Virus record (IMG/VR): IMGVR_UViG_3300039310_000236
Location: 1 to 28,288 of that record
Source: a virus
Length of the DNA: 28,288 nucleotides
Strand: one strand, 5' to 3'
Shown piece by piece: positions 1 to 28,000 of this stretch (positions are counted from its first letter, which is position 1; each line of letters begins with the position of its first letter). A model generated the notes under the pieces. The model did not search any database, was not told where the DNA came from, and saw only the letters and a list, made by a program, of their open reading frames with translations. A program made the translations under genes and the position numbers.

Positions 1-900
1 TCATTTGGATTTTATGTAACCAATGAAACAATTAATATTCCTAAAGTCGGTTATGTTAGACTTAAAGAAAAAGGTTACATCCCAACTAAAGACGTTAAAA
101 TAAACTCTATGACAGTATCTAAAGATGCTGATAAATGGTTTATATCTGTTCAGGTTGAACAAGATATACCAGAACCTTCTAATCAGATAGAATCCGTTTT
201 GGGTGTAGATGTAGGTATAAAGACTTTAGCTACTTGTTCTAATGGAGAAACATTTGAAAATAATAAGTATCTAAAAAAATCAAAGAAAAAGTTAGCTCGT
301 GCACAAAAGAATTTAGCACGTAAGAAGTTTAATAAAGAAACTAAAAGGTCAAGTAACAACAGAAATAAAGCTAAGTTAAAAGTACAAAAGATATATAAAA
401 GAATAAGTAATCAAAGAATAGATGCTCTTCATAAGATGACAAGTATTTTGGTGAAAACCAAACCAAGATATATAGTCTTAGAAGATTTGAATGTTTCTGG
501 TATGATGAAGAACCATAAACTTGCAGGTGCTATAGGTGATGCTTCTTTTAGTGAAATTAAAAGGCAACTTACCTATAAGACTGCTTGGTTTGGTGGTTTA
601 GTAATCGAAGTAGATAGATTCTTCCCTTCAAGTAAGATGTGTTCTGTTTGTGGTTGTTTAAAGGAAGATTTAACTCTTGAAGATAGGATTTATATATGCG
701 ATTGTGGAAATGTCATAGATAGAGACTTAAATGCATCTATTAACTTAGAGAAGTATGGATTAATTAAACTTAAACATACCGATAGTTTGTCGGGAATTAA
801 AGCCTGTGGAGAAAGTGTAAGACCTGTTCAAGTCTGTATGATTGAAAAGGCTGTTTCAGTGAAGCAGGAAGGAAACTTGAGTCTTGCAAAGATTCTATAA
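1..900 (+). CDS. tnpB: RNA-guided endonuclease TnpB (IS605 OrfB family), 5'-truncated by window edge
   Basis: TnpB is an RNA-guided DNA nuclease, related to Cas12, that helps IS200/IS605 elements persist. The frame is open from base 1, so the gene starts outside the window; the ATG at 109 is internal, since TnpB-like sequence (EKGYIPTKDVKINS) precedes it. Catalytic RuvC residues are visible: Asp in GVDVGIK (208-210), Glu in VLEDLNVSGM (481-483), and Asp in DRDLNAS (near 724). A four-Cys zinc ribbon lies between the last two (CSVC at 640-651, CDC at 697-705). About 299 codons are visible of the roughly 400 usual for the family, so about 100 N-terminal residues are missing. All catalytic and zinc residues are intact, so the nuclease could be active. 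Confidence 0.93.
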   Translation, partial: SFGFYVTNETINIPKVGYVRLKEKGYIPTKDVKINSMTVSKDADKWFISVQVEQDIPEPSNQIESVLGVDVGIKTLATCSNGETFENNKYLKKSKKKLARAQKNLARKKFNKETKRSSNNRNKAKLKVQKIYKRISNQRIDALHKMTSILVKTKPRYIVLEDLNVSGMMKNHKLAGAIGDASFSEIKRQLTYKTAWFGGLVIEVDRFFPSSKMCSVCGCLKEDLTLEDRIYICDCGNVIDRDLNASINLEKYGLIKLKHTDSLSGIKACGESVRPVQVCMIEKAVSVKQEGNLSLAKIL

Positions 901-977: not shown

Positions 978-3392
978 TTGTATAATAATCTTTTATATGG
1001 CGTTAAACATCGAATCTTGGATGAAGTAGAGTCAGCTTTTCTAAATCATCCAAGATTCTCTGAAAAAACTCTTATTTATAATAAGTTTCCATACGAGCAA
1101 CGTCCACAGTATGGCATTATACTCTCTAATTCAAGTGCGTCTCAAATCCGGATGTCTGCTTCTAATTTCCTGAATGTACAGCATTCCTATGTTCGTCTCG
1201 CCAAGTTTGAAAATTATCCGGGATTAGGTATCGAATGGGTCCGCGAAAACCAAGATTATTTGGCTGTAGAATTTTGTGATAATTTAACCTCTCAAATAAC
1301 ATCTGTTCCTCAAAGAAAATTTAATACTACATATCAATTTTGTCGTGGTAAAATGGACCTGACCTTGGCCCGGCTCCCGTCAGAAGTACAGATAAAAGTT
1401 AATGGTCATCATATAGAGGCAGAATTCGTTGATGGATATAAACAATTTATTGTATTACCTATAGCTTTGTCTTCTGGGGATACTTTAACGGTAACATATT
1501 GGCAAAGTCAAATGTCCCATCCGGGTGTCTATAATGTTATTTTTAATAATGATAATTCATTTATTATCAACCCCACTCTTTTTATTACAAATGAAGTCTT
1601 AGTAAATAAAACTACAGGTCTTGAAACGACAGTAGTGTTTGATCACGTTCCTATAGGTCCCACAGGGCCTTGGACAGGGCCCTATCCAAGTTTCTCCGGT
1701 TATTCAGGACCTTATCCTTCTACTCCAATTACAGTGGATATAAATATAGATGTTCAAGCTTTAGCTGTAAGTCCATTTATTTTATCTGGTCAAAACACTG
1801 TTATTGCTGGTACAACCAATGATATTTATTATTCTACTTCTTCTGGCACAACGTGGACTTTTGGTTTTTCTAATCCTTTACCTTCTGAAATTCTTACCTT
1901 ATCCTGTACAGGGCCTCAAATTTCAACTACATCTCAACTTGCGGAAACTTTTTTATTTGCCGGTACTACTACTGGACTTTCTATAGGTAATGGAATACAG
2001 TGGATAGCTTCTGATTTTTTTTCAAATTTAGAAGTCCCTGCTATAGCTACAGATAGTTCTACAGGAAACGTTTATGTAGTTGCTTCTAATGGTCGCTCTG
2101 CGTGGTTTAATGGCGGGACTTTTACTACACAGAGTACTGTAACAAGTCTTGGATCTGAAGATATGATAGCTTTTACTTGTCTTGCAACTTTAAATGGTAA
2201 TTTATATGCCGGAACTGAGGGGTCTGGTGTACAGGTTTCTTCTAATGCAGGAACAAATTGGTCTTCTATGAATACAGGTCTTACAAACCTTAATATTTCC
2301 TGTATTACTGCAATGCCCGGGACAGGGCCTTATCCTTGTCTTTATGTGGGGACTTCAACCGGTATATTTCTTTCTACGGATGGAACAACTTGGAATTCTT
2401 ATAGTACTGGTCTTGTTGATGCAGATGTACAATGTCTTGTTTCTGGGAATGGGGTTATATTAGCAGGAACTCCGACCGGAGCTTATATTTTATCGGGTGG
2501 AGTATGGACTGCTATAAATTCTGGTCTTACTAATACAAATATTCAATGTTTGACTATAAATATTTCAAATGGTAATGTTTTTGCAGGTACAGATACGGGT
2601 GTTTTCTTTTCTAATAATTATGGGTATGGGTGGGTCTCAGTTCCTGTAACTATAAAATATGGCGGTGTAAATAATAGTTTTTCGGGTTATTCAAGTTATA
2701 GCGGATACAGTGGGTATGAACCTCCAGGATCCGAACAAATATTTGTAAAATCTTTGTATAAGGGGGGATATTCTTATTTATTGAAACGGGGTATAGATTA
2801 TTCTATGGATTACCCGACAGGTACTCTTACATTTTTGAATCCATTAGAACCTGGTCTACAGATCGTGGCGGATTATGCCACTTCATTACCACCTACATCT
2901 TCATATCCATTTAAACCTTATCAGGAGAATCATACGGCTATTCCCGGGGTTGTGCTCAGTATAGGACGCAGGGCCCGGGCTGGAGACCAGCAATTGGTCT
3001 TTATAACACCTACGAGAGAAAAGCAGGCTGACATATACGGCGGGCACTGGGACATGGCCCTGTCCCTGTCCGTGATTTCCAAGGACACGGTACAGCTTGA
3101 AGAAATGACTGATCAAATTGTAAATTGGTTATGGGGTGTGAGGAAAAATCAGTTGGAATTTGAGGGTATTACATTAAATAGTGTAGAACCTACAGGTGAA
3201 TCTGAAGAATCTTTTGATGATTTATCAGGGACAATGTATTACGAACAATCAGTTGATATTTCTGTAATGACAGAATGGCAGAGATTTATACCTTATAATT
3301 TTACAGTTAAATATTTTGGTTTACATATTCGAGCGGTTCCTGATATACGTCCCGTTATGAAAATACCAATTGTGGGATATTCTAAGATTTAG
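978..3392 (+). CDS. Putative tail terminator-like structural protein with inserted beta-propeller
   Basis: 804 aa, starting at TTG (978) with AAAGGA 8 bases upstream; the frame is closed by TAA at 963-965. The N-terminus (about 1-65) and C-terminus (about 640-804, with HWDMALSLSVISK followed by an amphipathic helix EEMTDQIVNWLW) resemble the alpha/beta plan of phage tail terminators, and the gene precedes the sheath, where terminators usually lie. This is a resemblance, not a proven match. Between them are Gly/Pro/Tyr linkers (GPTGPWTGP, SFSGYSGP; residues ~222-250), then about 300 residues of BNR/Asp-box-like blades (GTTNDIYYSTSSGTTW, VGTSTGIFLSTDGTTW, AGTDTGVFFSNNYGYGW), typical of a beta-propeller, then a second SGYSGY linker (~567-583). 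The next ~60 residues look like a beta module with YLLKRGIDYSMDYPTGTLTF. The start lies at the edge of the IS element, so the original start may have been lost. Confidence 0.6.
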   Translation: MYNNLLYGVKHRILDEVESAFLNHPRFSEKTLIYNKFPYEQRPQYGIILSNSSASQIRMSASNFLNVQHSYVRLAKFENYPGLGIEWVRENQDYLAVEFCDNLTSQITSVPQRKFNTTYQFCRGKMDLTLARLPSEVQIKVNGHHIEAEFVDGYKQFIVLPIALSSGDTLTVTYWQSQMSHPGVYNVIFNNDNSFIINPTLFITNEVLVNKTTGLETTVVFDHVPIGPTGPWTGPYPSFSGYSGPYPSTPITVDINIDVQALAVSPFILSGQNTVIAGTTNDIYYSTSSGTTWTFGFSNPLPSEILTLSCTGPQISTTSQLAETFLFAGTTTGLSIGNGIQWIASDFFSNLEVPAIATDSSTGNVYVVASNGRSAWFNGGTFTTQSTVTSLGSEDMIAFTCLATLNGNLYAGTEGSGVQVSSNAGTNWSSMNTGLTNLNISCITAMPGTGPYPCLYVGTSTGIFLSTDGTTWNSYSTGLVDADVQCLVSGNGVILAGTPTGAYILSGGVWTAINSGLTNTNIQCLTINISNGNVFAGTDTGVFFSNNYGYGWVSVPVTIKYGGVNNSFSGYSSYSGYSGYEPPGSEQIFVKSLYKGGYSYLLKRGIDYSMDYPTGTLTFLNPLEPGLQIVADYATSLPPTSSYPFKPYQENHTAIPGVVLSIGRRARAGDQQLVFITPTREKQADIYGGHWDMALSLSVISKDTVQLEEMTDQIVNWLWGVRKNQLEFEGITLNSVEPTGESEESFDDLSGTMYYEQSVDISVMTEWQRFIPYNFTVKYFGLHIRAVPDIRPVMKIPIVGYSKI
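1672..1687 (+). repeat. GC palindrome copy A (GGACAGGGCCCTATCC)
   Basis: One mismatch from the perfect 16-bp palindrome at 16768-16783. It is preceded by a half copy (CACAGGGCCTT, 1661-1671). It is strikingly GC-rich against the surrounding AT-rich coding sequence and encodes part of GPWTGPYP in the propeller protein. Confidence 0.65.
2320..2335 (+). repeat. GC palindrome copy B (GGACAGGGCCTTATCC)
   Basis: Two mismatches from the 16-bp consensus. It is preceded by CCCG, so that CCCGGGACAGGGCC is shared exactly with the copy at 16768. It encodes PGTGPYP in a loop between two propeller blades. Confidence 0.6.
3050..3065 (+). repeat. GC palindrome copy C (GGACATGGCCCTGTCC)
   Basis: One mismatch from the 16-bp consensus, followed by CTGTCC again (3066-3071). 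Here it sits inside the folded C-terminal domain (WDMALSLS), in a different reading frame from the other copies. Confidence 0.55.
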
Positions 3393-3697
3393 TTGTTTTC
3401 TAAAAGTTCCCAGAATCTGGGGCTGAGCAGTTTCCAATGTGTGTACAGGATCAAGTCTTTTGAATTGATACGAAAAATAGTTGGACGAGGCTCGCTGTCC
3501 CAAGGATCCGTTTTTGGAAACGAATAAGAACAATTTTTTTCGAAAAAATATTTATCTTCAATATTCTTAATGGCTATGTTCACTACATCTCCGGATTTTC
3601 CTTCCTTCACAGATTCTTGACATTCTACAATTTCATAATAGCGAAAAAAATAAAATATAAGATCCCCTTTTTTAACATCCATTTTATTTATCCCCAT
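3389..3697 (-). CDS. Hypothetical protein, tandem paralogue 1
   Basis: 102 aa, function unknown. It begins MGINKMDVKKGDLIFYFF and ends KDLILYTHW..LSPRFWELLENN. The two ends match the next gene upstream (3684-3992), which has the same length; the middle has diverged. The opening V-K-K-G-D-L-I pattern followed by beta-prone residues suggests a small beta-barrel, but no family is recognised. Its stop codon overlaps the stop of the convergent tail gene (TAG 3390-3392), with no terminator between. Its start overlaps the end of the upstream paralogue by 14 bases, suggesting translational coupling. Confidence 0.6.
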   Translation of the reverse strand: MGINKMDVKKGDLIFYFFRYYEIVECQESVKEGKSGDVVNIAIKNIEDKYFFEKNCSYSFPKTDPWDSEPRPTIFRINSKDLILYTHWKLLSPRFWELLENN

Positions 3698-3992
3698 TTT
3701 TTAAAAGATCCCAGAATCGTTGGCTATGTACACCCCAATGCGTGTACAAGATTAGATCCTTGGTGTTAATAGGAATTATCGTAACAGGAATTCCCGCTTT
3801 AGAAGGATCTGGAGAAGAAAGATTATAAACTTGAAAAGTTCCTATATATTTATTTTTTTCTTGATCACTCGCTATTTTTTGTACTTTAACTTTTTTATTT
3901 TCATAAATTTTATAACATTCTAAAATTTCTGTATAAAACGCTGAATAAATGATCAAATCCCCTTTTTTAACATCCGTTTTATTCACTTCCAT
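3684..3992 (-). CDS. Hypothetical protein, tandem paralogue 2
   Basis: 102 aa from the ATG at 3992 (MEVNKTDVKKGDLIIYS). A longer reading from 4043 is possible, but its 17 extra residues (MYTHWGVHSQRFWDLLK) are the tail of the upstream degenerate copy, so the shorter start is preferred. The C-terminus (KDLILYTHWGVHSQRFWDLL) is the most conserved part of the family. Function unknown. It lies in a minus-strand cassette inside an otherwise plus-strand tail operon, which suggests an accessory insertion rather than a core tail part. Confidence 0.6.
   Translation of the reverse strand: MEVNKTDVKKGDLIIYSAFYTEILECYKIYENKKVKVQKIASDQEKNKYIGTFQVYNLSSPDPSKAGIPVTIIPINTKDLILYTHWGVHSQRFWDLLKNGDK
3699..3755. 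repeat. 57-bp direct repeat, unit 1 (partner at 3993-4049)
   Basis: The DNA encoding the conserved C-terminus (LYTHWGVHSQRFWDLLK) is essentially identical at 3699-3755 and 3993-4049, offset 294 bases. Identity at DNA level points to recent duplication or gene conversion between paralogue 2 and the degenerate copy. Confidence 0.7.
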
Positions 3993-4230
3993 TTTTAAAA
4001 GATCCCAGAATCGTTGGCTATGTACACCCCAATGCGTGTACAAGATTAGGTCCTTAATATTAATAGGAATTTTTGTCGCTCCGTTCGCTAGATTATAAAC
4101 TTGAAAAGTTCCTATAAAATTATTTTTTTCTTGATCACTTGCTATTTTTAGTACCTTCTAAAATTTCTGTATAAAACTCTGAATAAATGATCAAATCTCC
4201 TTTTTTAAAATTCATTTGTTTTATCTTCAT
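3993..4230 (-). pseudogene. Frameshifted third copy of the 102-aa family
   Basis: The reading from ATG 4230 (or 4215, MNFKKGDLIIYSEFYTEILE) matches paralogue 2 and then hits TGA at 4135-4137. The rest of the homology continues in another frame (VLKIASDQEKNNFIGTFQVYN, then KDLILYTHWGVHSQRFWDLLK) and runs without a stop straight into paralogue 2. Compared with that copy, a stretch matching CYKIYENKKVKVQ is shortened, which creates the shift. It is a decayed or partly deleted gene copy, unless the 31-residue peptide is itself used. Confidence 0.6.
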
Positions 4231-5083: not shown

Positions 5084-7948
5084 ATGGCAAACATTGGTCC
5101 TTTTCCTTCCGGGTTCGTTTTTCCGGGTGTATATACCCAAACATTCGATTCCGCTCCAACAGGAATTGTTACTCCTGGTGCTCGTATTCCTGTTTTTATT
5201 GGTATTGGGTCTTCGTCTACTCCTGTATCCGCATATGAAGTAATTCGTGGATCAAGTGCGATGGCTGATAACCCAATTACCAAAGAAGATGTTTCATATC
5301 AATTTTCTATTGCCAATAATCCTAATGGTAATAATCGTACAATAAATGTGACTTTTTATCCAATAGTAACTGGATCTGGGGCGGGGATTACAACTACTGA
5401 TCCTTCCGATGTTACTGTTTATGATAATGGAATATCAGTACCTGTAGCCTCTATTGACGGGTCGGCGGGACAAATTTATCTTGTAAATCCCCCACAAACA
5501 GGAGACACAGTAACAGTAAGTTATTATTTTAAACGGACTGATACTCTTTATACAAATGAAAATGTAAGTGCACAAGCTAATGGCACTAATTTATCCTTTC
5601 AAGTTGGAAATGGACCTATTGTAACTGGTGAAAATGGGGGAATAGTTTCCACCAACCCAGCAAATGTAACTGTTACAGTAAATGGTGTGGGTGTAGTTCC
5701 TACATCTGTAAATGGAGCAGAGAGTATAGTTGTTCTTCCAACTGCCCCGTTATCAAATGCCACAGTTCTTATCACTTATTATGGTAATTCTTATCAATAT
5801 ACTTATGATATTCTTCCTCCAAATGTCCTTTCTATAACTAATGTTGGTTTGAATTCAACTTCAACAGATTTTATTCGTGATAAAGATTATGAGCTTGAAA
5901 CTGGCGTTTCAATTATAGATAATACTAATGCTCAAAGTACTTTTAATATTATTACTTGGGGAAATAGTAATGCTATTCTTCCAGGAATTATTACAAGCGA
6001 TTTTACTTCTTTAGCAGCTGAAATTACAACTGCCTTAGATGTAGATACTAGAATTTTTGCCCAAGTTGCATCTCCTATTAATGGAGCTGTAGATGGAACT
6101 AATGATGGGACAAATAAGACTTTCGTTTTAGCTGGTACCCCAGTTTCAGGTAGTGGACAAGGAATATCCACTGATAATACTAGTACAGTATCAGCATATG
6201 TTGGGGCTAATCCTTTTGCTGCTGTTTCAGCTGGTCCGGTTCCGATTGCTACACTTACTTCCGCAACTGATACAATAGTTTTACAAAATGCTCCAGCACA
6301 AGGGAATCATGTTTATGTAACCCAATATGAGAATTTCATGACTGATAATGTGTGGACTCTTTCTAATTTAGTAACCGATGGATCTACATTTTCAGTTGTG
6401 AATTCTGAAGATTCTTCAGCTTTTACAGTATTGTTCGATTCTTCATCTATATCGAATTTACCGTACTACCCACAAAATGGGGCGTCAAATTTATCTCTTG
6501 GAAATGTGACTTGTGCAGTTGTTCCCCCTGCAACAGGAATAAATAATGAAGTTATAACAACTACTTTTATTGATTCTACCCAATATGTGGTTTCATCCAA
6601 TGTTGCTGGTGGTACAGGTTCGATAGTTGCAGATGCTACTGGATATGTTAATCAGACTTATATTGATCCAGTAACAGGTTTTAGAATTACATTAGGTTCT
6701 GTAAATCCAAGTACATCGTTATACAGTGCTGGTATGATATTTAAATATCTTGTTACTTCTACTTTTACTGCTTCGAGTTCCAATCAATATGGGATTCCCG
6801 GTATTAAATTTGTAGTTTCGTCCCTTACTAATTATGCGGGGGATACTGGTATAATAAATACCTATGTAAAGAGTGGAAATGAGCCCGCAGTAGGAGATTT
6901 TTATTATATATCTTTTTTGCAAGGGACTCAATTTAATGATAATGGAATTGCTACACCAGTTTATGTTACAACTGAAAAAGATGCTCTTAATTATTCGGGT
7001 CCATTAAGCGCTTCGAATAAATTATCCTTGGCTGCTCATCTTGCGTTTCTTAATGGAACGGGCGGAATTATTCTTTGCCAAATTCAAGTTCCTTCAGGAC
7101 AAACTGATGCCCCAGACAGTCTTTATATGTCTGCTATTGATTTGTTTAATACTCCGCTTCCGGGTGGATTACGAGGAGCTTTAATACAGCCGGTTACAAC
7201 TTCTATCAATGTTATAAACTATTTACGTACTACTAATTCTCAGCAATCTTCAATTCGATATGCTAATGAACGTATGTCGTATTTTGGGTTTCCGTTAAAT
7301 ACATCTCCTTCTTCAGCTATCGTAATTGCTCAATCAATGAATTCCGAACGAATGATAGCAATTTATCCTGACGGAGCTTTAATGAGTATTACAGATTCGG
7401 CTGGTAATACGACCTCATTCTTGGTGGATGGCTCGTTAGTAGCTGCTGCAGTTGCTGGTATTGATACTGCTGCTGCATATGATGTTGCTGAACCTCTTGA
7501 ACGGAAACAGATTTCTGGATTTATTAGTCTATATCGCAATTTGGATGCAGTAACACAAGCACAAGTTGCAAATGCTGGTATTACATTACTTGATAATGAA
7601 AGCGCAGGGATTATAATTAAAATGGATTTAACGACTGATCTTACATCGGTTCTTACTCAAATCCCTTCAGTTATCCGTATCAAAGATTATGTACAGCAAG
7701 GGGTACGACTCACACTTAATCAGTTTATTGGTGGGAAGTTTTTAAATTCCAGAACTGGTGATATAGAAGTTAAAGTAAAATCGTTCTTTAGTGCTCTTCA
7801 GAAAGCTAATATAATTGCAGCTTTTGCGAGTGTTACTGCAGTCCCGGATCCTGACGAGCCTACGACTGTTAATGTTACAGCTACTTATAGCCCTGTATTT
7901 CCATTACGGTGGATTGTAGTTACTTTTAGTTTAGTATCCACTATTTAA
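5084..7948 (+). CDS. Contractile tail sheath protein
   Basis: 954 aa. The N-terminal FPGVYTQTFDSAPTGIVTPG and IPVFIGIGSS are typical sheath openings. The C-terminal ~120 residues (IPSVIRIKDYVQQGVRLTLN, then GDIEVKVKSFFSALQKANII) fit the sheath C-terminal domain that links subunits into the contractile mesh. The protein is longer than many sheaths because of insertions: three related beta modules at about residues 87-150, 169-232 and 345-415 share PIVTGxGxGI, a Val-Thr-Val-x-x-NG strand and a final VxVxYY strand. These probably decorate the tail surface. A strong ribosome site GGAGG (5072-5076) precedes the ATG by 7 bases, as expected for a very abundant protein. Confidence 0.9.
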   Translation: MANIGPFPSGFVFPGVYTQTFDSAPTGIVTPGARIPVFIGIGSSSTPVSAYEVIRGSSAMADNPITKEDVSYQFSIANNPNGNNRTINVTFYPIVTGSGAGITTTDPSDVTVYDNGISVPVASIDGSAGQIYLVNPPQTGDTVTVSYYFKRTDTLYTNENVSAQANGTNLSFQVGNGPIVTGENGGIVSTNPANVTVTVNGVGVVPTSVNGAESIVVLPTAPLSNATVLITYYGNSYQYTYDILPPNVLSITNVGLNSTSTDFIRDKDYELETGVSIIDNTNAQSTFNIITWGNSNAILPGIITSDFTSLAAEITTALDVDTRIFAQVASPINGAVDGTNDGTNKTFVLAGTPVSGSGQGISTDNTSTVSAYVGANPFAAVSAGPVPIATLTSATDTIVLQNAPAQGNHVYVTQYENFMTDNVWTLSNLVTDGSTFSVVNSEDSSAFTVLFDSSSISNLPYYPQNGASNLSLGNVTCAVVPPATGINNEVITTTFIDSTQYVVSSNVAGGTGSIVADATGYVNQTYIDPVTGFRITLGSVNPSTSLYSAGMIFKYLVTSTFTASSSNQYGIPGIKFVVSSLTNYAGDTGIINTYVKSGNEPAVGDFYYISFLQGTQFNDNGIATPVYVTTEKDALNYSGPLSASNKLSLAAHLAFLNGTGGIILCQIQVPSGQTDAPDSLYMSAIDLFNTPLPGGLRGALIQPVTTSINVINYLRTTNSQQSSIRYANERMSYFGFPLNTSPSSAIVIAQSMNSERMIAIYPDGALMSITDSAGNTTSFLVDGSLVAAAVAGIDTAAAYDVAEPLERKQISGFISLYRNLDAVTQAQVANAGITLLDNESAGIIIKMDLTTDLTSVLTQIPSVIRIKDYVQQGVRLTLNQFIGGKFLNSRTGDIEVKVKSFFSALQKANIIAAFASVTAVPDPDEPTTVNVTATYSPVFPLRWIVVTFSLVSTI

Positions 7949-9146: not shown

Positions 9147-9911
9147 ATGCCTACCGATAAAGACAGTTACATATTTAGACGCGGTGTTACTCCTAACACT
9201 TTGTCCGTCATAAGTTCAAAAAATCGAATCTATGCATATAATGCTTCTGATTCAGGAGGGGCTACACAAATAGGTGTTGTTTCTACTTTTGATCCATCAG
9301 AAGCACGAACAGTGGAACCAATTCGTGGTATCGGTTTTGGTGATCACATTGCAGAACTAGTACCTGGTGTAACGGATCCTATGACGATTTCTATTACACG
9401 AAGTGCATTATATATTTCTAATCTTTACCAAGTTTTTGGATATAAATCTGGGGTTGACGGTATCGTAAGATCTCTTAGACATCATCGATGGCCTTTTGAT
9501 ATTCGTCAAGAGCTTGTTTTTAGTCAATTAACTTATAACGATTATGGACCTACAATTAATGCAAATAACGTAGATACTCCATTAGAGCCTGGTGTGGATA
9601 CTGGTACATCAACAGGTGGAACTCCGGGAGCAGGTGAAGGTCTTATTGCTTTGATTACATATTATGAAGCATGCTGGATGTCGGACTATTCAGTTTCTTA
9701 TGCTTCTGATACGGCTCTTGTACAAGAAACAGTAACTATTAACGTTTCTGATATTCTTAGCGAATCTTTCGAAGCAGCTTATAACCCGTTATCAGAGACT
9801 TTGGACACATTTAATCTGGATGCAATTTCGATGAGATTAACTTCAGCGAGTGGAATAACATCTGTTTCTCCAGCTCTTCCTGGATCGATTTCATTGAATA
9901 ATCCAGCGTAA
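9147..9911 (+). CDS. Tail tube protein (probable)
   Basis: 254 aa. It lies after the sheath and before chaperone-like genes, the usual tube position. The MSDYSVSYASDTALVQETVT strand pair followed by INVSDI is the kind of beta-hairpin found near the end of tail tube folds, and the N-terminus has a compact beta pattern with GFGDHIAELVPGVTD then PMTISITRSALYI. A Gly/Thr/Pro loop (DTGTSTGGTPGAGEG, ~150-165) is probably surface-exposed. AAGGAG (9133-9138) sits 8 bases before the ATG. The tube forms the DNA channel inside the sheath. The assignment is by position and fold pattern rather than a clear match. Confidence 0.7.
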   Translation: MPTDKDSYIFRRGVTPNTLSVISSKNRIYAYNASDSGGATQIGVVSTFDPSEARTVEPIRGIGFGDHIAELVPGVTDPMTISITRSALYISNLYQVFGYKSGVDGIVRSLRHHRWPFDIRQELVFSQLTYNDYGPTINANNVDTPLEPGVDTGTSTGGTPGAGEGLIALITYYEACWMSDYSVSYASDTALVQETVTINVSDILSESFEAAYNPLSETLDTFNLDAISMRLTSASGITSVSPALPGSISLNNPA

Positions 9912-9940
9912 TTTTTTCCCGTGTAAACGGGGATGTTTAT
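9912..9940 (+). repeat. Hairpin with type I-E CRISPR-repeat geometry
   Basis: Bases 9916-9922 (TTCCCGT) pair with 9927-9933 (ACGGGGA) around the loop GTAA: 7 bp including one G-U. The E. coli-type I-E repeat has the same 7-bp stem, 4-nt loop and GGGGAT edge, and the aligned 29-nt frame would be 9912-9940. The last bases (GTTTAT) do not match the usual AACCG end, and only about half the positions agree overall. A T-run precedes the stem rather than following it, so it is not a terminator on either strand. Confidence 0.35.
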
Positions 9941-9954
9941 GAGTATATTTCACT

Positions 9955-9986
9955 GTCGCGTCCCATATGGGCGCGTGGATTGAAAC
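9955..9986 (+). repeat. Solitary type I-C-like CRISPR repeat (32 nt)
   Basis: It begins GTCGCG and ends GTGGATTGAAAC, exactly 32 nt, the usual I-C repeat length. Bases 9957-9963 pair with 9969-9975 to give a 7-bp stem (one G-U at 9961/9971) with a 5-nt loop. The remaining 11 nt (TGGATTGAAAC, 9976-9986) are the handle left on I-C crRNAs after Cas5 cleavage. Stem, loop and handle all match the family. I find no second copy in the window, so it is not an array. Confidence 0.85.
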
Positions 9987-10002
9987 AAACTAAGTAATTT
10001 AA

Positions 10003-10024
10003 AGGGGCGGATAAGCCCCTTTTT
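10003..10024 (+). terminator. Rho-independent terminator after the repeat-like RNA
   Basis: AGGGGC (10003-10008), loop GGATAA, GCCCCT (10015-10020), then a T-run: a 6-bp GC-rich stem with a poly-T tail. It lies 16 bases after the I-C-like repeat and would end a short RNA containing it, or the sheath-tube transcript. Confidence 0.85.
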
Positions 10025-10076
10025 AAAATTTTGGGATTCTTAAATAATATAAAATTTAAATAACAAAAATAGTTTG

Positions 10077-10833: not shown

Positions 10834-11882
10834 TGACAAAAAATGAAGCATATAATACTTTAGCCGAAATAATTTTTAAAGGCTTTATTGTATCGGATTT
10901 TTATTTCGATTCTAATCATATAATTTTCAAAACCATAAATGATAAAGAATTTGAATTAATGAAAATTTATGCAGGAAATACTAATTCTTATGATTATCAA
11001 TTTAGATTTAATATTTATTTTTTAGTTTTTAGTCTTCTTATAATCAGTAATCAAAATGTTTTAATCGACCGGGATAAACATATAGATGAACTCTTTACTT
11101 TATTTTCTTCATTACCCCAATATATTTTAAGAAAAATGATTGATTTATTAAATACTGAAGATGCAAGAACACTAGAAGCAAGTAAATATTTAGAAGGATT
11201 CAGTTATACAGACAGGTCCAGATCTATTTGGAAAATAGCATCTGAGACGTTATTAACCAATCCTGAATTTACTGGAATTCCTGGAACAGAAAATATAGGT
11301 ACAAATTCCTGTCAAGAAAGTTGGATACTTATTAATAAAAGCTTAGATAACGAAGAAAAATATGATACTGATTTTTCGATGGCATTGTTAATAACATCTG
11401 CTTCTAATCCCAAAGGAGCTCGTCAAATTCGTAATCAACATAGTGGGGCTGTACACGGGTTGGAAGATCGTAGAGCACATCTTGCAGATATAGGGTATAT
11501 GGATTCAAAAGAGTGGTCTTCTAAAGGATGGGCGGCACGGACAGATACAGCGGAAGAACTAGTAGCGGAATTGGATAGACAAATGAAAGGTCAAAAAGAC
11601 AGACATGATTTATTAATAGAAGCTCATTTAAAACAAGTTAAAGATAGTGCTGAACAAAAGCGACGAGAAGCTGAAGAGAGAATTAAACGTATACGAATTG
11701 AGCGTGGATATACTCCTCTTATTGAAGGTAGCCAACGTGCTATGACTACTGAAGAAGTTTCTAAAATGATAGAATCTAAAAAAAAGAAACTTGTTCCATC
11801 AACTACTGGTAACGAAATGGGAAGCGCACGGTTTTTTAAGAAAACAAATCCTCGTATTTTAACAGCTAGAGGTAGAGCATAA
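10833..11882 (+). CDS. Protein of unknown function between chaperone and tape measure, possible second tail chaperone
   Basis: 349 aa. Residues 1-150 are mixed helix/strand with hydrophobic stretches (FNIYFLVFSLLIISNQNVLI) but no clear signal peptide. Residues ~235-290 form a charged coiled-coil-like helix (ELVAELDRQMKGQKDRHDLL, then EQKRREAEERIKRIRIERG). It begins at TAATG overlapping the preceding stop and ends with TAATG overlapping the tape measure start, so all three are translationally coupled. Many phages make a second chaperone here by -1 frameshifting; this gene is in the -1 frame, but I see no slippery heptamer, so reinitiation is more likely. Function is inferred only from position. 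Confidence 0.5.
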   Translation: MTKNEAYNTLAEIIFKGFIVSDFYFDSNHIIFKTINDKEFELMKIYAGNTNSYDYQFRFNIYFLVFSLLIISNQNVLIDRDKHIDELFTLFSSLPQYILRKMIDLLNTEDARTLEASKYLEGFSYTDRSRSIWKIASETLLTNPEFTGIPGTENIGTNSCQESWILINKSLDNEEKYDTDFSMALLITSASNPKGARQIRNQHSGAVHGLEDRRAHLADIGYMDSKEWSSKGWAARTDTAEELVAELDRQMKGQKDRHDLLIEAHLKQVKDSAEQKRREAEERIKRIRIERGYTPLIEGSQRAMTTEEVSKMIESKKKKLVPSTTGNEMGSARFFKKTNPRILTARGRA

Positions 11883-14800
11883 TGCCAATTAAGTCTAAAA
11901 ATATTGAAGATCAATTGAGAGGACTTAATGATCTTAATAATACCAATCAAACTTTGAATGATACTCTTAAAGATTTAAAAGAAAATATTCATTCTCTTTA
12001 TGCAGAAATGGCTAAGGGAACAAAGATAACTGAAGAAAATAATGCAGTTTCTGATAAAGAAAGAAAAAAACGAGAAGCAGATGCCGAAGCTTGGTATAAA
12101 GATACAGAAGCTTTAAAAAAATATACTGGTGTCGCAACTAAAACTACAAATGTTTTACAAGGTTTTGGAATTTTAAAAGATATGTGGAAGTCTCCAGCAA
12201 AAAATATTGCTGGGACAGCTAAAGCTTGGGGTAACTATGCAGAAAAAATGAAAGAAGTTGGTAGAGACTCTAAAGATTTATCAGGCGCGATGACAGCGGC
12301 TGGTAAAATGACTAATATGATGGGAGAAGCTGTAGGAGGTGTAGCAGAAGCTGTAGGAGTTGTAGCAGAAGGATTAGCTGGGTGGCCCGGACTTGTTTTA
12401 ATGGGTTTTAAAGCCGTTTTTGAAGTTGTAAACTCATTAGACGGGTATGTTAAGAAACTTAATAAATCTTTTGCATATATTAGAGGACCTTCTTTAACAA
12501 CAGATGTTAATAAACAGTTTAAAGATTTTAATACCGCTATTACGAGTGTTTTTGATAATTTGAGGGATGGGTTGACTTCTAAAGAAGTTTATGGATTTTT
12601 GGAAGGTATGAATTCAATGGGAGTCAGCGTATCTTCGTTGAATACAGAGTTTCAAAGTTATCGAGATGTTGTACATGTTGCTGCAAAAGCAAATAAAATA
12701 TTTGGTGGGGATATGGTTAATATGGCTCAGTATCAATCTAAAATGATGCTTGATTATAGAATGGACTTAAAAGAGATAGATTCTGCTTTTGTACAAGTTG
12801 CATTTGATGCAGAAAAAAGTGGATTATCAACTGACAAATTTTGGAATTCTGTATTGAACGCTTCAAATTCTCTTGCTTTTTATGGAAAATTTTTATCCTC
12901 AACTTCTACTTTAATGAGTAAATTTTCTTCTTCCGGATTAATGAGCGCTGATGCGGCAGCTAAAGCTACTGAGGAAATACAGAATTTTTTTAATAAAATG
13001 ACGGACACAGAGAGACTTGGTGTTGTACAATTAGGAAAACAATATGGAGTTAAGTGGCCAGAAATTGGAAAAGAAATAGCAAAAGGATTACAGTCTGATG
13101 TTGGTGATATACAAAAACAAATAAATCTCGCTAAAGCTAAACAAACCCAAGAATTCAATGAAACAGGAGAAGAAAATCCAGAAACTACTAAATTATTAGA
13201 AGATCTTAATAATAAATTTTCTGCAGCAAATCAAAAATTAGATCGTATAAAAAATACCGGGACAAGTGATCTTGCCTTGGCTCAAGACTTGCCTATGTAT
13301 AGTGATAAAACCTTAGATGTTTTGTCTCAAATTATTAGTGGTATGGATAAACAAGCTAAAGGAACTGGTATATTAGCTAAATCAGGACAAGATCTTATAA
13401 CAGCTGTTCAAGGTATACACGCAATGCCAGGCGGTGCAAATATTTCAGAAGAAACAATACGTTATGTAATAGAAACAACAAAACAAGCATTATATGGTAT
13501 AGAAGACGGATTAAAAGATGCTTTAAAAAATATTAAAGCAGGGGGACCTGAGGAATCAACAAAAATTTTAGATGAAATAAACAATCGTATAGAAAAAATG
13601 GTGTGGACAGGAGAAGAAGGTCAAAAGAATTTGGAAGAAGAAGGTAAATTTTTTTCTAAGGAATTACATATAAGTTCAATTCAAGCCAAAAATTTAATAA
13701 AAGGATTAGTAGTAAATAAAAAACTTTTATCTCAATTTAAACTTGGGTTAAAAGATGGAAATATGAATTCTGATCAGTTATATGATGTTTTAGATAAATT
13801 AATAAATACAGATGAAGAGGGGTTAGCGGTAAATCATAGTACTCTTAAGACAGGAGTCCAAGATGCTAAAACACAAAAAAAACAATATGATAAAACATAC
13901 CGGGAAGTAACTGCTCAAACATTATCGTTGCAAGACGCGATGACTATTGCACAAGATGCGGCTAAGTGGCAGGGGGCTGTATTTTTTAAAGTTGCAAAAA
14001 TTTCTGAGTGGATAGGTCGTATAGCAAATAAATATCTTAAAGAAGAGATTACAACTGAACAAAAAGAAGCTCAAAAAATACTTGATAAAGCTGGATATGC
14101 CGGTCGAACAGATTATCCTCAAATGTTAAAAGAACTTAAAGATAAGCAAGACACTGATCAAAAACAATTGGATACTGCTGAAGACTCAAAAACACTTCTT
14201 AAAAGTATAGTAGATGTAAATGGTAATATAGATACTAATAAACTTAATTCTACATTATCAGATTTAAAAACAAATCCTGAAGATAATAAAGAGCAAATAC
14301 AATTATTACAGGGAATTTTAAAAGCAGGTGGAAATACCACAGATCGTCAACTTATGAAAAAACAATATGATGTCTCTACAAAATATGCTATACTTAATTC
14401 TACTAATGCTACTAAAGCTTTAAATAATGATCAAGATCAAATTAATGCTATTAATAGTGTGGATAGTCATGCAGAAGATATTGTAGATTTATTAGGTTCT
14501 CAAGCGTCTCAAGATCCAGATGCTGGAGGAAAAATGTTAGAATATATAAAACAAAGAGCCGAAGCAGCGGGCTTTCCTACAATAACTCCTGAGGATCTAT
14601 TTAAATATGGAGGTAATGTTGGTGGACAAATAGCTTCAGATTATGCAAAAAAAAATAAATTGTTTTCTGTTTCGGAAGACGAATATTTTCCTGCGATAAT
14701 ATTCGAAGAGCATCTAAAAATAGGTCCACAAATGTCAACAGTCCCTGGACATGCTTCCGGAACTTCTTTTGCACACGGCGGTATGACATTAGTAGGAGAA

Positions 14801-15022
14801 AAAGGCCCTGAACTTGTAAATATGAAACGAGGAGCCCAAATATTTGATAGTGCACAAACCAGACGTTTAGCCCCCGTTTTAGGCTCTACAAATCAGAATC
14901 AAATGCCAGCCCCCACAAGTAATAAAAATATTGTGGTTAATGTGACAGCTACTGAGAAGAATCTTGGGGATCGTATAGCGAACCAAGTTCGATCAGTTTT
15001 ATATGCAGAATATTTGAGATAA
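11882..15022 (+). CDS. Tape measure protein
   Basis: 1,046 aa, mostly helical. It opens with a coiled coil (LNDTLKDLKENIHSLYAEMA). At ~145-185 is a hydrophobic Gly/Ala/Val segment (GEAVGGVAEAVGVVAEGLAG and WPGLVLMGFKAVFEVV), as in tape measures that cross or contact membrane during DNA ejection. The C-terminal ~100 residues contain SFAHGGMTLVGEKGPELVNM then RGAQIFD, a hallmark of tape measure C-termini. Tape measure length sets tail length; at about 0.15 nm per residue it would give a tail of roughly 150 nm if the whole protein acts as ruler. No lytic domain is evident. Confidence 0.85.
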   Translation: MPIKSKNIEDQLRGLNDLNNTNQTLNDTLKDLKENIHSLYAEMAKGTKITEENNAVSDKERKKREADAEAWYKDTEALKKYTGVATKTTNVLQGFGILKDMWKSPAKNIAGTAKAWGNYAEKMKEVGRDSKDLSGAMTAAGKMTNMMGEAVGGVAEAVGVVAEGLAGWPGLVLMGFKAVFEVVNSLDGYVKKLNKSFAYIRGPSLTTDVNKQFKDFNTAITSVFDNLRDGLTSKEVYGFLEGMNSMGVSVSSLNTEFQSYRDVVHVAAKANKIFGGDMVNMAQYQSKMMLDYRMDLKEIDSAFVQVAFDAEKSGLSTDKFWNSVLNASNSLAFYGKFLSSTSTLMSKFSSSGLMSADAAAKATEEIQNFFNKMTDTERLGVVQLGKQYGVKWPEIGKEIAKGLQSDVGDIQKQINLAKAKQTQEFNETGEENPETTKLLEDLNNKFSAANQKLDRIKNTGTSDLALAQDLPMYSDKTLDVLSQIISGMDKQAKGTGILAKSGQDLITAVQGIHAMPGGANISEETIRYVIETTKQALYGIEDGLKDALKNIKAGGPEESTKILDEINNRIEKMVWTGEEGQKNLEEEGKFFSKELHISSIQAKNLIKGLVVNKKLLSQFKLGLKDGNMNSDQLYDVLDKLINTDEEGLAVNHSTLKTGVQDAKTQKKQYDKTYREVTAQTLSLQDAMTIAQDAAKWQGAVFFKVAKISEWIGRIANKYLKEEITTEQKEAQKILDKAGYAGRTDYPQMLKELKDKQDTDQKQLDTAEDSKTLLKSIVDVNGNIDTNKLNSTLSDLKTNPEDNKEQIQLLQGILKAGGNTTDRQLMKKQYDVSTKYAILNSTNATKALNNDQDQINAINSVDSHAEDIVDLLGSQASQDPDAGGKMLEYIKQRAEAAGFPTITPEDLFKYGGNVGGQIASDYAKKNKLFSVSEDEYFPAIIFEEHLKIGPQMSTVPGHASGTSFAHGGMTLVGEKGPELVNMKRGAQIFDSAQTRRLAPVLGSTNQNQMPAPTSNKNIVVNVTATEKNLGDRIANQVRSVLYAEYLR

Positions 15023-22010: not shown

Positions 22011-25000
22011 ATGTCTACTCCATTAAATAATATAATTGATTTTTCTTCAATTAATTTAAATCTCTTTGAGGTCCGTGGGGCAAAACCTGGTATTGGAAAT
22101 GCTTCTACAACGGGTCCTCTTTTTGATTCTTCAGGGAATTATTATCTTGCACAAGTTACGGATTATACAGGTACTATATTTGCAGGTTCGGATCAAACGG
22201 TTGGTCTGACTATAAATACACCTAATGGGGTATCAGATTTAGTAATAAATGATACTTTATTTTTTGCTGATAGCACGTTTACTGTTTCTTCAATATTATC
22301 GGATTCCAGTATAGTTATTACAGGTAATACAATCCCGAATAGTTCTTACCCATATACAGCATCACTTTTATTGACGGACCGAGAATATCTTATTCAACCA
22401 GACCCAATTGGAAATACTTATAATATTGGTCTTGCACAGTTTACTAATGGGTCCACAATTATTGTTGGTCAATCTACGGAATGGTTGTCAAATCTTGATT
22501 CATCTGATGTAATACAACTCGATTCGTTACCTAAATATTTTACTGTGGAATCAGTAATAAATGATACGACCTGTATAATTACTGAACCTTTTACAGGGTC
22601 TACAACAAGTTTTGAACCTTATACGGTGAAAAGATGGCGTTTAGGAAGAGAAGTATATCAATATGTAAAAAATAATTTTACATATGATAATAATTCTGGG
22701 AAATGGGTATATAATACTGTTACGGGTGGAGATTATACGACATCTTCTTCGTATACGCCTTTTATAGATGGATTAAATTTAGAATTTTCTCCAACATTAA
22801 ATCCATCTGGGTCTCCTGATTTAATGGATAATACAGTAGTTAGTGGTTTGATATTAACTCGTTCTACTCCAAACCCTTCTTTTCAATTTCCATTGCCAGC
22901 AGTTCCAGACCCTGAAGACAGTTTTAGTTTACAAATTAACGGTATAGATGTGGATATGTATCCTAATGGTACGCGAGATTATATCATTAATTATTCTCAA
23001 AATCCAGTTTATACAGCCCCCCCACCTCCTGAAGATAGAAATATAGCAAATTTGATGTTCTTGAATCCAATATCAAATTCAGCTTTAAAAAATACTACAT
23101 CTGGACAATTTAAAGTTTCTGATATCCACGGGAATTCTATTGTGGATATTATGCCGGGATCTGAAACCGTAACTTTTAATGGTGTAGATCAAACTCCGTA
23201 TGTAAATTATGTGATGGAATATCAAGCAGGATATGGATATGCTTCAGAAATTATTACTAATGAGCCTATAGTTAAATATGTATTTTACAACGATACTACA
23301 AATTTATATAGTACAGGATTACAAGTTTTTTTGAATTCTGTTCCGGTTCAAGTTTCGGTTCCATATGCATCTGGGGATGATGTGTACGTTGATCTGCAAT
23401 CGGGTGGTTTTAAACCGGTTGCAAAAGACGGGCCAGGGCCCGGTGACCTGTATGATATTTATTATTATATAGAGGGTTCGTATTTTAGTGATCAAATTTT
23501 TACATCTATTGATGGAATAACCAATGGGGTTTTGGCTTCTAATAATACTATAGCCATTACTATATCTCAATTCCCTTTAAAATATCAATCCGTTATAGTT
23601 ATGAAAAATGGAGTATTTTTAAATGAAGATATAGATTACAGAGTTCGATATCTTACTGGCGGATTAGTATTTTTTACTCCTTTACAAACAAGTGATATTA
23701 TAAGTGTGTCCTATTCTCAATTGTTACCGTGTCATAACACACTTACTTCTATTGATGGGACGAATATTTGTTATACTTTTGATGCAACCACTACTGTTTC
23801 ATCTATAACTCCCCTAGTTATAAATTTTCCTAATCCTGATATATCAGATTTAAACACAGTCACGATTTCTAATATTATAAATATTAGTCAAGACGCAACA
23901 TATAATATTAACGATTTATATTTATCTACTTCTGGGATTGCGATTCCAAATAATAATATAGCTACTCGTTTGACAGATATTATAACTATTGATTACAGTT
24001 TTCCGGGAAGCGGTTTATCTTCTTATCCTGTAAATACAATTATATTTCATGTTGCTCAGGGTGACGATTATATAGCATTTATAAATCAAAATTTATCAAC
24101 ATTATTTGTACCTGGAATAATGTTACGTATAACTGGAGTAGAGACTCCAGGGGATTATTATTTTCAAGTTGATACATCTGGATCTATTTATGATGGTGAA
24201 GATACCATAGTTTATTTATCGAGTCAGTGTCCGGTTGATATAACTAATCCACAAATTTACATTTCGGATTCTATGTCTTTTAATTTTATAGAACCCATTA
24301 CTGTAAATAATATTTTTTCGGGAGCCAATGCTTTAATATTAACTGGAGATTTAATTCAAATATACCGTTCTGGTCAGTTATTAAATGTGGGTTCGGATTT
24401 TTATTATATAAGTAGTTCTATGTTTGATGGGGTGGATACTACTGTTTTAGTTTCCGTTCCTTTTTATCAAAACTATACAAATGTTCAAGTTTCCGTTTCG
24501 GATGTCCCCATCTATTTTGAGGGTACTACTGAAGTTACAAGTTCTAAATCTATTATCACTGATCCACAAGCAGCAGTAATATCTCTTAATGGATACGGGT
24601 CTATACAAAAAGATTTGACCTCAACTATTGTTATTACTGATACTACTAGTGCAGTTTTACTTGACACTAACTATCCTACCGTTTCAAGTTTATCTACTGA
24701 ATTGTTAAATTTAGGTTTTACAGATAATGTCTATGCTCCAGATTGGACTACTAGTAAAATTTTGATTACTACATCTCCTTTATCCGTGTCCACTGATTTT
24801 ACTGCTGTATTAAATGCACCGGCGTGTTTAAGATATAATAATATTGATACAACAAACTTCACTCTTTTATCTGGAAATCAATTAACTATACCAAGTATAT
24901 ATCGAGGAGACCGGTATAACTTTGATTATCTTGGACAAACTATTTTAGATACTACTACTGTAGGTTTTAATGGTAATTATTTTGTAACATTACCTGCGCA

Positions 25001-28000
25001 AAGCTCTTTAACCGCTTCGTTTCAATATGATAATGTAGATCAATTTTATATTCAAGTAACTTCTCAAAAAAATTTCTTAGAAAACGTTATTATACCTAAT
25101 CGTACATCGGGAATACAACAGCAATCGGATTCTATAGGTCAAGGAGGGTCTTTACCCAACGATACTGATACAGGAAACAGTGCTGGGGGATTGACAAATG
25201 TAGAAGATACGAGAGTTGATCAAGTTATTGAATCAGAAATTTTTGCAAATATATTTAACTTTTTTAATACCCGTGCTCAAGCTTACGGGGATGAATATTA
25301 TGCAGCATTTGGGTATAAATTATGTAATAATGACGGATTAGTTTCTACTACAGATATGTCCGCAGGTACGTTTACTTTTAATAGATTTTTTCCGTATTTA
25401 GATTATACAGGTAATGCCCCATGGGTGGTTGCTGGATTAACTGGTCAAACTATTCCATATGCATCAGCGGGTCCAAATAAGCCCCCTAAGGGTCTTTTAG
25501 ATGAAGCCCAATTTATCAATGGAAGATCGGATGTCCAAGCGATATCATCGCTGGTTGATCACGCATGGACAAAACAGGTCCGGGCTGGAAATTATATAGG
25601 ACGTTATGATTCTACAATATTATATCAAATATCTGAAGTTGTTAACGATTCATCTATTCAATTGGTGAATCCTTATACAGAAATTACTGCCACAATTCCT
25701 TATATATTACAATCAGCTTTTCCATTATTTGATGATGACGGTCATACAGGTGCAAAAATTATAGGCACTGTTGGTGAAAATTTTGGATTGACGGGATCGG
25801 GTCCTATAGTATATGATGGATCTGGAAATTCTGGTCATTCAGGATACTCTGGGGCTCCAGGAACATCAGGTTTTAGTGGGTATTCCGGATTAGGATTTTC
25901 AGGATATTCGGGTTATAGTTCTCAAAACGGCATTTCAGGTTATAGTGGATATTCTAGTTCTGGCTATTCTGGATACAGCTCAACATCAGGTTATAGTGGA
26001 TATTCTGGATATGGGTTTTCAGGCTATTCAAGTTTCTCTGGCTATTCAGGCTATTCAAGTTTCTCTGGCTATTCTGGATACAGCTCAACATCAGGTTATA
26101 GTGGATACTCTGGATATGGGTTTTCAGGTTATTCAAGTTTCTCGGGTTATTCAGGATATAGTTCTTCGGGGATTTCTGGATATTCAGGATATTCTACATC
26201 AGGATATTCCGGTTATAGTAGCTTTTCAGGTTATTCCGGTATTAGTGGTTGGTCTGGTTGGTCTGGTTGGTCAGGATTAGCAGGTAGTATTTATACTTCT
26301 ACTTCTACTACAACAAATACTATAGGAACTGGAACTCTTACTTTTACAGTTGGAACATCTCTTGCTTTTTCAATTGGACAGCCAGTAATTTTTGCGTATA
26401 ATAGTTCAAACGAGATTATGGGTACTATTACAACTTATAATCCTGTAACAGGTGTAATGGTTATTAATTCCACTTCAACTATAGGATCTGGGACTTATAG
26501 TCAATGGGCTGTATCCTTAGAAGGAGCTGCTGGTCCTCAAGGTGTTTCTGGTTATAGCGGGTATAGTGCTGTTGGAGTCTCTGGGTATTCTGGCTATTCT
26601 AGTTCTGTTGCTGGAATTTCAGGATATTCAGGATATTCAGGATATAGTTCACAAAGTGGGTATTCTGGCTATTCTAGTTCTGTTGCTGGAATTTCAGGTT
26701 ATTCAGGCTATAGCTCTATTTCTGGGTACAGTGGCTATTCAGGTTATAGTTCACAAAGCGGATATAGTGGCTATTCCAGTACTTCTGGATACAGTGGCTA
26801 TAGTTCTGTGGGGATTTCTGGATACAGTGGTTATTCAAGTAACTCAGGATATTCTGGATATTCTTCTGTATCAGGTTATAGTGGGTATTCAGGGATCTCA
26901 GGATATTCTGGTTATAGCTCTATTGGAACGTCGGGGTATTCAGGTTATAGCTCACAAAGTGGGTATTCAGGATATAGTGGATATTCGTCTGTTTCAGGTT
27001 ATTCAGGCTATAGCTCTATTTCTGGATATTCCGGTAAAAGTGGTTATTCTGGATATAGTTCACAAAGTGGATACAGTGGTTTTTCTGGTTATTCAGGATA
27101 CAGTAGTTTTTCAGGCTATAGTGGTTTTGGAACTTCTGGATATTCTGGGTGGTCTGGTTATAGTGGCATATCTGGATGGTCCGGAGCGAAGGGAGATAAT
27201 GGAACGGGTTTTGCAGGCCCTTCCGGATATAGCGGGTATACAGGATATTCTGGGTATAGTTCCACTTCTGGCTATTCTGGGTGGTCTGGATATAGTGGGG
27301 GACCCGTCTATGCAACTCTTGATCCTGCTAATAAAGGAACAAATGTTTCTCTTTCACCTAATAATTTAACATGGACAAATAGTGGCGAAGGAATGGTACG
27401 TTCAACTATAGGAATATCATCAGGACAATTTTATTGTGAAATAACGGTTGGTTCTGATGGTGGAGATTCTGAATTAGGTTTTGTATATGGGAGTATTTTT
27501 AATAAAAATAATTATCCGGGTGCAGATGCTTATAGTTGGGGATACGCTGACTCAGGAATTTACTATAATAGTGGTACCGGGCATGGGGGGTTTGCATCTT
27601 TTGGTAATGGAAGTATAATAGGTCTTTTAATTAATGCAACAGCTGGAACCGTAAGTTTTTATAATGAAGGGATTTTTCAATTCACAATTTCTGGTATAGC
27701 AAGCCCTATATATCCAGTAGTTGGTGGTAATCCTAGTAGGGCGACTGGAACAGTAAATTTTGGACAGCAGCCATTTGTTTATAGTTCGGTTCAGGGAACT
27801 TCTGGATATTCTGGGTGGTCTGGTATCAGTGGGTGGTCTGGTATCAGTGGATGGTCTGGATTTGGAGAGTCCGGATATAGTGGTTTTAATGGACTTCAAG
27901 GAATTTCTGGTTATTCTGGCCAAAGTGGTCTTACCTATTCAAGAACAAGTGTGGGGTCCTCTAGTAGTTATATTCCTGTTGGTCAATATACTTTTAATTA

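Follow-up and report, generated by a model that had tools for sequence, protein, structure and literature searches.

Type I-C CRISPR systems lack Cas6, and the handle that Cas5d leaves is 11 nt long (PMC5965380). Assembly of the I-C complex is nucleated by Cas5c, which together with Cas7.7 clamps this 5' handle, the contacts of Cas7 being non-specific (PMC7684278). Solitary repeat units (SRUs) are an established class, and Camara-Wilpert et al. (2023) describe several of them as proven RNA anti-CRISPRs (Racrs), which act via capture of Cas proteins (PMC10651486). As described there, RacrIC1 from a Bifidobacterium pseudocatenulatum prophage inhibits type I-C and is encoded 11 nt downstream of acrIC5 on the same transcript (PMC10651486). 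In RacrIF1, from a Thiocystis violascens prophage, the piece upstream of the Cas6f cut assembles into a Cas6-Cas7 filament and has little need of the handle (PMC10651486). The original prediction for the present locus relied on solitary repeats of phages being able to act as RNA anti-CRISPRs, which agrees with this known class and with RacrIC1 as its proven type I-C member. The repeat described here is an additional candidate of an already known class, and the class itself is not new.

The window, by which we mean the whole stretch of DNA analysed, is a 28,288-bp IMG/VR virus record with a contractile-tail module (Table 1). Its repeat is 32 nt long, in full type I-C format, with the 11-nt handle TGGATTGAAAC. 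The predicted fold consists of a 7-bp stem (C3-G21 to C9-G15, one G-U pair), a CAUAU loop and the handle UGGAUUGAAAC; stem base and handle are both intact, and the 32-mer with its parts lies on the plus strand exactly as originally predicted. With R1, a covariance model made from 44 solitary I-C repeats of other phages (IMG/VR, among the matches listed, window excluded), the repeat scored 48.2 bits (E=7e-12), and the second-best match in the window had 11 bits. The IMG/VR search pattern fixed both repeat ends, where invariance is by construction; in the unconstrained middle of the solitary repeats, 39 compensatory cells were found against 0/500 shuffles (among the matches listed). The 28,288 bp hold one copy of GTCGCGTCCCATATGGGCGCGTGGATTGAAAC at up to 3 mismatches, with 0 expected in shuffles, and the region 9904-10040 folds better than 200/200 shuffles (z=-3.5). 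No Rfam family reached its gathering score, CRISPR-DR9 giving 18 bits. A hairpin that resembles a repeat by chance, or an ordinary terminator doing so, could be suspected from the real terminator hairpin close by; this reading is refuted because of the E value and the zero copies expected at 3 mismatches, and its probability is negligible.

Table 1. Features of the tail module around the solitary repeat (positions in the window)
Feature	Position	Strand	Remarks
Sheath gene	5084-7948		Pfam Phage_sheath_1C
Virion structural gene, probable tail tube	9147-9911	+	Co-directional, upstream of repeat
Second hairpin, TTCCCGT-GTAA-ACGGGGA TG	9916-9935	+	Type I-E stem geometry, without I-E handle; directly upstream of repeat
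TTTCA	9948-9952	+	Complementary to handle TGAAA (9981-9985) in lowest-energy fold
Solitary type I-C CRISPR repeat (SRU), GTCGCGTCCCATATGGGCGCGTGGATTGAAAC	9955-9986	+	Single copy; covariance model, fold
Repeat parts	stem 9957-9963 with 9969-9975; loop 9964-9968; handle 9976-9986	+	
Pseudo-spacer, AAACTAAGTAATTT	9987-10000	+	Opens with AAAC directly 3' of handle; predicted unstructured
Intrinsic-terminator-like hairpin, AAAGGGGC-GGATAA-GCCCCTTT-TT	10001-10024	+	Fold and own detector
Gene of 222 aa	10165-10833	+	Next co-directional gene; closes 253-nt intergenic gap
Tape-measure gene	11882-15022		PHROG 19914

The features by which an SRU is recognized were found together at this locus: a full-length match to the repeat of a CRISPR subtype (the R1 score, and 3 mismatches in 32 to an array of Thermodesulfovibrionales), no further repeat, complete or partial, within 100 bp, a location outside an array, and an intergenic position in a mobile element, with no cas genes linked to it in the window and its 36-kb relative. 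The identification of 9955-9986 as a solitary type I-C repeat, through CRISPR origin or mimicry, is thus well supported by sequence and predicted structure. A Rho-independent terminator had also been predicted 3' of the repeat, and a terminator-like hairpin is present there according to both the fold and our own detector, which recover it where a simple terminator scanner omitted it, its T-run pairing into the stem. On the 5' side, the modelled fold pairs TTTCA with the handle, which it could keep hidden as long as the stem is neither bound nor cut. As a general trait of solitary repeats, such an upstream anti-handle was rejected, as it occurred in 4/99 (among the matches listed) against 1.9 expected and was not enriched. 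The second hairpin was considered as a solitary repeat of type I-E, and the locus accordingly as a dual decoy. This reading is not favoured: its score against model R2 was 12.2 bits (E=0.026), the handle is missing, and unrelated loci score equally. Its sequence was found nowhere else except in the near-identical contig, and it is probably not a CRISPR repeat.

No second repeat was found in the window or in a near-identical record of 36,229 bp (L002), which is less than a complete phage genome, and neither record has cas genes, the only PADLOC-positive open reading frame being a TnpB-type OrfB. The absence of a second repeat and of cas genes, as originally claimed, was upheld across both records, and neither contains a spacer flanked by two or more repeats, the arrangement of a mini-CRISPR array. 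L002 is 99.6% identical over 10.5 kb, has the same locus and carries the repeat intact, which shows that the repeat is phage-resident and excludes an artefact of a contig end. The OrfB (1-900, plus strand) lies beside the tail module, at the edge of the contig; it is the C-terminal part of the protein, with Pfam OrfB_IS605 and a Cas12f1-like TNB domain, and represents an IS200/IS605-type element in the phage.

Solitary I-C repeats are abundant across IMG/VR, and a sample of 99 non-redundant ones, chosen regardless of their 3' side among the matches listed, was analysed. AAAC followed directly 3' in 10/99 of them (among the matches listed), compared with 0.49% elsewhere in the same sequences (p=8e-11), and directly after array repeats it was found in 0/75 cases in viral arrays and 1/75 in host arrays. 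A separate scan for GCGTGGATTGAAAC followed by AAAC returned 40 stretches, 33 of them distinct and nearly all solitary, and the permuted control, GCGTGGATTGAAAC followed by ACAA, returned a single stretch without an I-C stem. The window repeat has AAAC directly after its handle and is a member of this group. No AAAC was seen after 14 I-F and 16 I-E solitary repeats, which are small samples. After AAAC, the tetramer most often found immediately 3' of solitary I-C repeats was GACA (7/99, among the matches listed). The 3' flanks are rich in A (37% vs 26%), and they have less structure than controls taken from further downstream, which include coding DNA. Terminator-like sites lay within 90 nt of 13/98 solitary I-C repeats (among the matches listed), compared with 2.9% at random places, and 66/99 (among the matches listed) were intergenic compared with 18% of random positions, or 83/99 compared with 29% under another cut-off for open reading frames. 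In the literature examined on solitary repeats and mini-arrays we found no description of the AAAC mark, which may still have been reported; the AAAC-tailed I-C solitary repeats thus appear to be a subgroup not found described in those sources.

These flanks bear on the idea that the locus encodes a guide RNA, in which the handle and its 3' sequence would direct the host I-C Cascade at a rival phage or a host gene as a one-sided mini-array. The handle is indeed the start of a type I-C crRNA, and virus-borne mini-arrays in that role exist (PMC11656645). However, the second repeat is lacking in the window and L002, the pseudo-spacer upstream of the hairpin has 14-17 nt, far below ~33 nt, no convincing protospacer was found in 50,697 phage records, and the AAAC start is common to unrelated phages, unlike target-specific spacers. 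We therefore consider a guide function very improbable. The repeat might also lack a present function, either as a decaying array scrap from a host or as an attachment site by which the phage integrates into host arrays; the mediation of viral integration into arrays by repeat-like sequences is mentioned in PMC10651486. Against it, neither leader, spacer nor partial repeat is found near the window copy, and both near-identical contigs carry that copy intact. Furthermore, the phage solitary repeats range from 25 to 35 nt, compared with 31-33 nt in the arrays met, and this wider range together with the recurrent AAAC tail indicates that solitary repeats evolve as phage elements. The scrap or attachment-site explanation is accordingly rather unlikely.

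The repeat starts 43 nt past the stop codon of the upstream gene (9147-9911), a conserved virion gene that follows the sheath gene and precedes the tape-measure gene. Its homologue in the 308-kb Tunturiibacter phage Tunturi_5 (44%) is annotated 'virion structural protein', and searches with the gene itself gave no family match, no PDB profile match and no usable AlphaFold structure match. From its position, it is likely the tail tube. Of the original statement that the repeat stands directly after the tube gene, the placement directly 3' of a virion structural gene holds, and the identity as tube is likely. Promoter prediction found nothing in the 43 nt upstream or in the gap, and phage promoters need not fit the scan used. 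On the mRNA of the structural gene, the repeat would belong to the 3' UTR. An anti-CRISPR is expected to act early, and read-through from a virion gene, which is late, would give late timing that is odd for such a function. Racrs are frequently, though not always, neighbours of known acr genes; none of the open reading frames scanned around the repeat matched an acr gene in PADLOC, Pfam or PHROG, libraries that contain few acr models. Elsewhere in the window, two tandem related small open reading frames (102 and 119 aa; 3389-4043) lie on the minus strand, against the direction of the tail genes, in an insertion-like placement, the first with a sub-threshold EF-P KOW-like match, and a 2,092-aa open reading frame (22011-28286, plus strand) runs off the contig end with GYSGYSG repeats that extend over hundreds of residues, collagen-like or fibre-like in character.

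Among 80 loci with related tube genes, an I-C repeat near the tube gene was found only in L002 and L027, and 4/50 records of relatives, many of which are fragments, had a solitary I-C repeat. In L027, whose tube gene is ~60-63% identical, a divergent I-C repeat (GTCGCTCCCCGGGAGCGTGGATTGAAAT, 39.6 bits) occupies the same intergenic gap after the terminator, just upstream of the ribosome-binding site of the next gene, whereas the window copy precedes the terminator. This differing order suggests separate placements rather than one inherited site. Another relative (G002) has a solitary I-C repeat, GTCGCATCCTGTATTGATGCGTGGGTTGAAAC, away from both the tube-gene gap and the tRNA site, and a third (G023) has two 25-nt I-C copies (L270:1501-1525 and L271:1501-1525), GTCGCTGAAAAGCG[T/C]GGATTGAAAC, 182 nt apart, the first of which lies 225 nt from a tRNA-Ile gene. 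The copies in L027, G002 and G023 suggest that this phage family uses solitary I-C repeats recurrently and at changing sites. The original question of whether related phages keep the repeat has a mixed answer: I-C repeats occur in relatives, with divergent sequences and at different sites. The nearest isolated phage, Tunturi_5, has no solitary I-C repeat. In the gap after the tube gene, most of L003-L025 combine a strong terminator with recurring AT-rich 'ATAAnATTnAnATAAnA' motifs, possibly late promoters. Just upstream of the sheath gene of a related phage (L021:838-874), the sequence GTGAGACCGCAGTTTGTGCGGGGATTGAAAC, a hairpin plus GGATTGAAAC, resembles the solitary repeat of another CRISPR subtype; it was absent from 149 genomes of the candidate host order.

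A role in mRNA processing or as a 3'-end element should also be weighed, in which cleavage by the host's Cas5d or an RNase and a stability hairpin would trim the structural-gene mRNA and CRISPR inhibition would be incidental. The position in a 3' UTR just upstream of a terminator is consistent with it, as are solitary repeats of other phages just upstream of start codons and the proximity to tRNA genes, at 225 nt in L270 and at 15 nt from tRNA-Thr, within a cluster of 12 tRNAs, for the solitary I-C repeat L087:3040-3072. In contrast, a plain processing hairpin has no need of the exact 11-nt handle and the GTCGC stem base, and most relatives with the same gene pair use ordinary terminators in the gap. 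We regard such a role as unlikely. For repeats near or inside phage tRNA clusters, tRNA processing perhaps releases the RNA.

For the host, the proposed search of genomes and host arrays had a mixed outcome. With either C or T accepted at positions 7 and 32, the exact repeat was in 0/84,980 species genomes, and the nearest array repeat found, in a Thermodesulfovibrionales genome, differed at 3/32 positions, none in the handle. In this order, I-C repeats were present in 34/121 genomes and Csd1 in 2/6 checked, so that a compatible I-C host among Thermodesulfovibrionales is plausible from these genome sequences. A contig of a Thermodesulfovibrionales MAG carries a tube gene 57% identical to that of the window; it is a 4.8-kb low-coverage contig and weak evidence for the host.

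Considering these results, we propose that the element is probably a phage-borne solitary type I-C repeat acting as an RNA decoy, that is, an anti-CRISPR of the Racr type. The repeat, its solitary state, the gene context, the relatives, the AAAC mark and the terminator support this reading, and we infer transcription, cutting, complex formation and CRISPR inhibition by the element. The RNA would be either a segment of the mRNA of the structural gene upstream or the product of a phage promoter that escaped recognition, with its end at the terminator at ~10024. Host Cas5c/Cas5d of type I-C would then recognise the stem and cut after it, leaving a product with the 11-nt handle, the A-rich unstructured pseudo-spacer and the terminator hairpin. 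Cas5c would clamp the handle and Cas7 would start assembly on the pseudo-spacer, giving a short complex without a useful target, and Cas5c/Cas5d may also remain on the cut stem, so that both products would sequester Cas subunits from the real crRNAs of the host.

The downstream product is the presumed actor, since type I-C lacks Cas6 and Cas5c nucleates on the handle, and the recurrent AAAC likewise suggests that handle plus pseudo-spacer form the active decoy, with a polarity opposite to that of RacrIF1. As a tentative generalization, in which we place less confidence, phage I-C solitary repeats may be distinct decoys of the form 'repeat + AAAC pseudo-spacer + terminator', in which the handle freed by Cas5 nucleates a stunted Cas5-Cas7 complex, the reverse of RacrIF1, and this locus would be one instance. 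If true, for type I-C the sequence 3' of the repeat would be part of the functional element, with a clear prediction of which part of an I-C decoy RNA works in this compact, common Cascade. The AAAC mark could serve as a simple test to tell functional solitary I-C repeats of phages from scraps of arrays. With this locus, candidate RNA anti-CRISPRs also reach into the tail module of a myophage-like family that is large and uncultured, a place in which annotation by genes would overlook them.

Compared with the described systems, the locus resembles RacrIC1 as a solitary I-C repeat in a phage genome directly 3' of a co-directional gene. The upstream gene of RacrIC1 is acrIC5, whereas that of the window is a virion structural gene with no acr seen, and the window element is a candidate from sequence. 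As with RacrIF1, the solitary repeat mimics the stem of a host repeat and is proposed as a decoy for Cas proteins; RacrIF1 depends on Cas6f with an active upstream product, whereas the downstream product is the likelier actor in the I-C element. With virus-borne mini-CRISPR arrays the locus shares a phage-encoded repeat for host Cas proteins, but in these arrays a targeting spacer is combined with two or more repeats, and the window has one repeat followed by a short pseudo-spacer that starts with AAAC.
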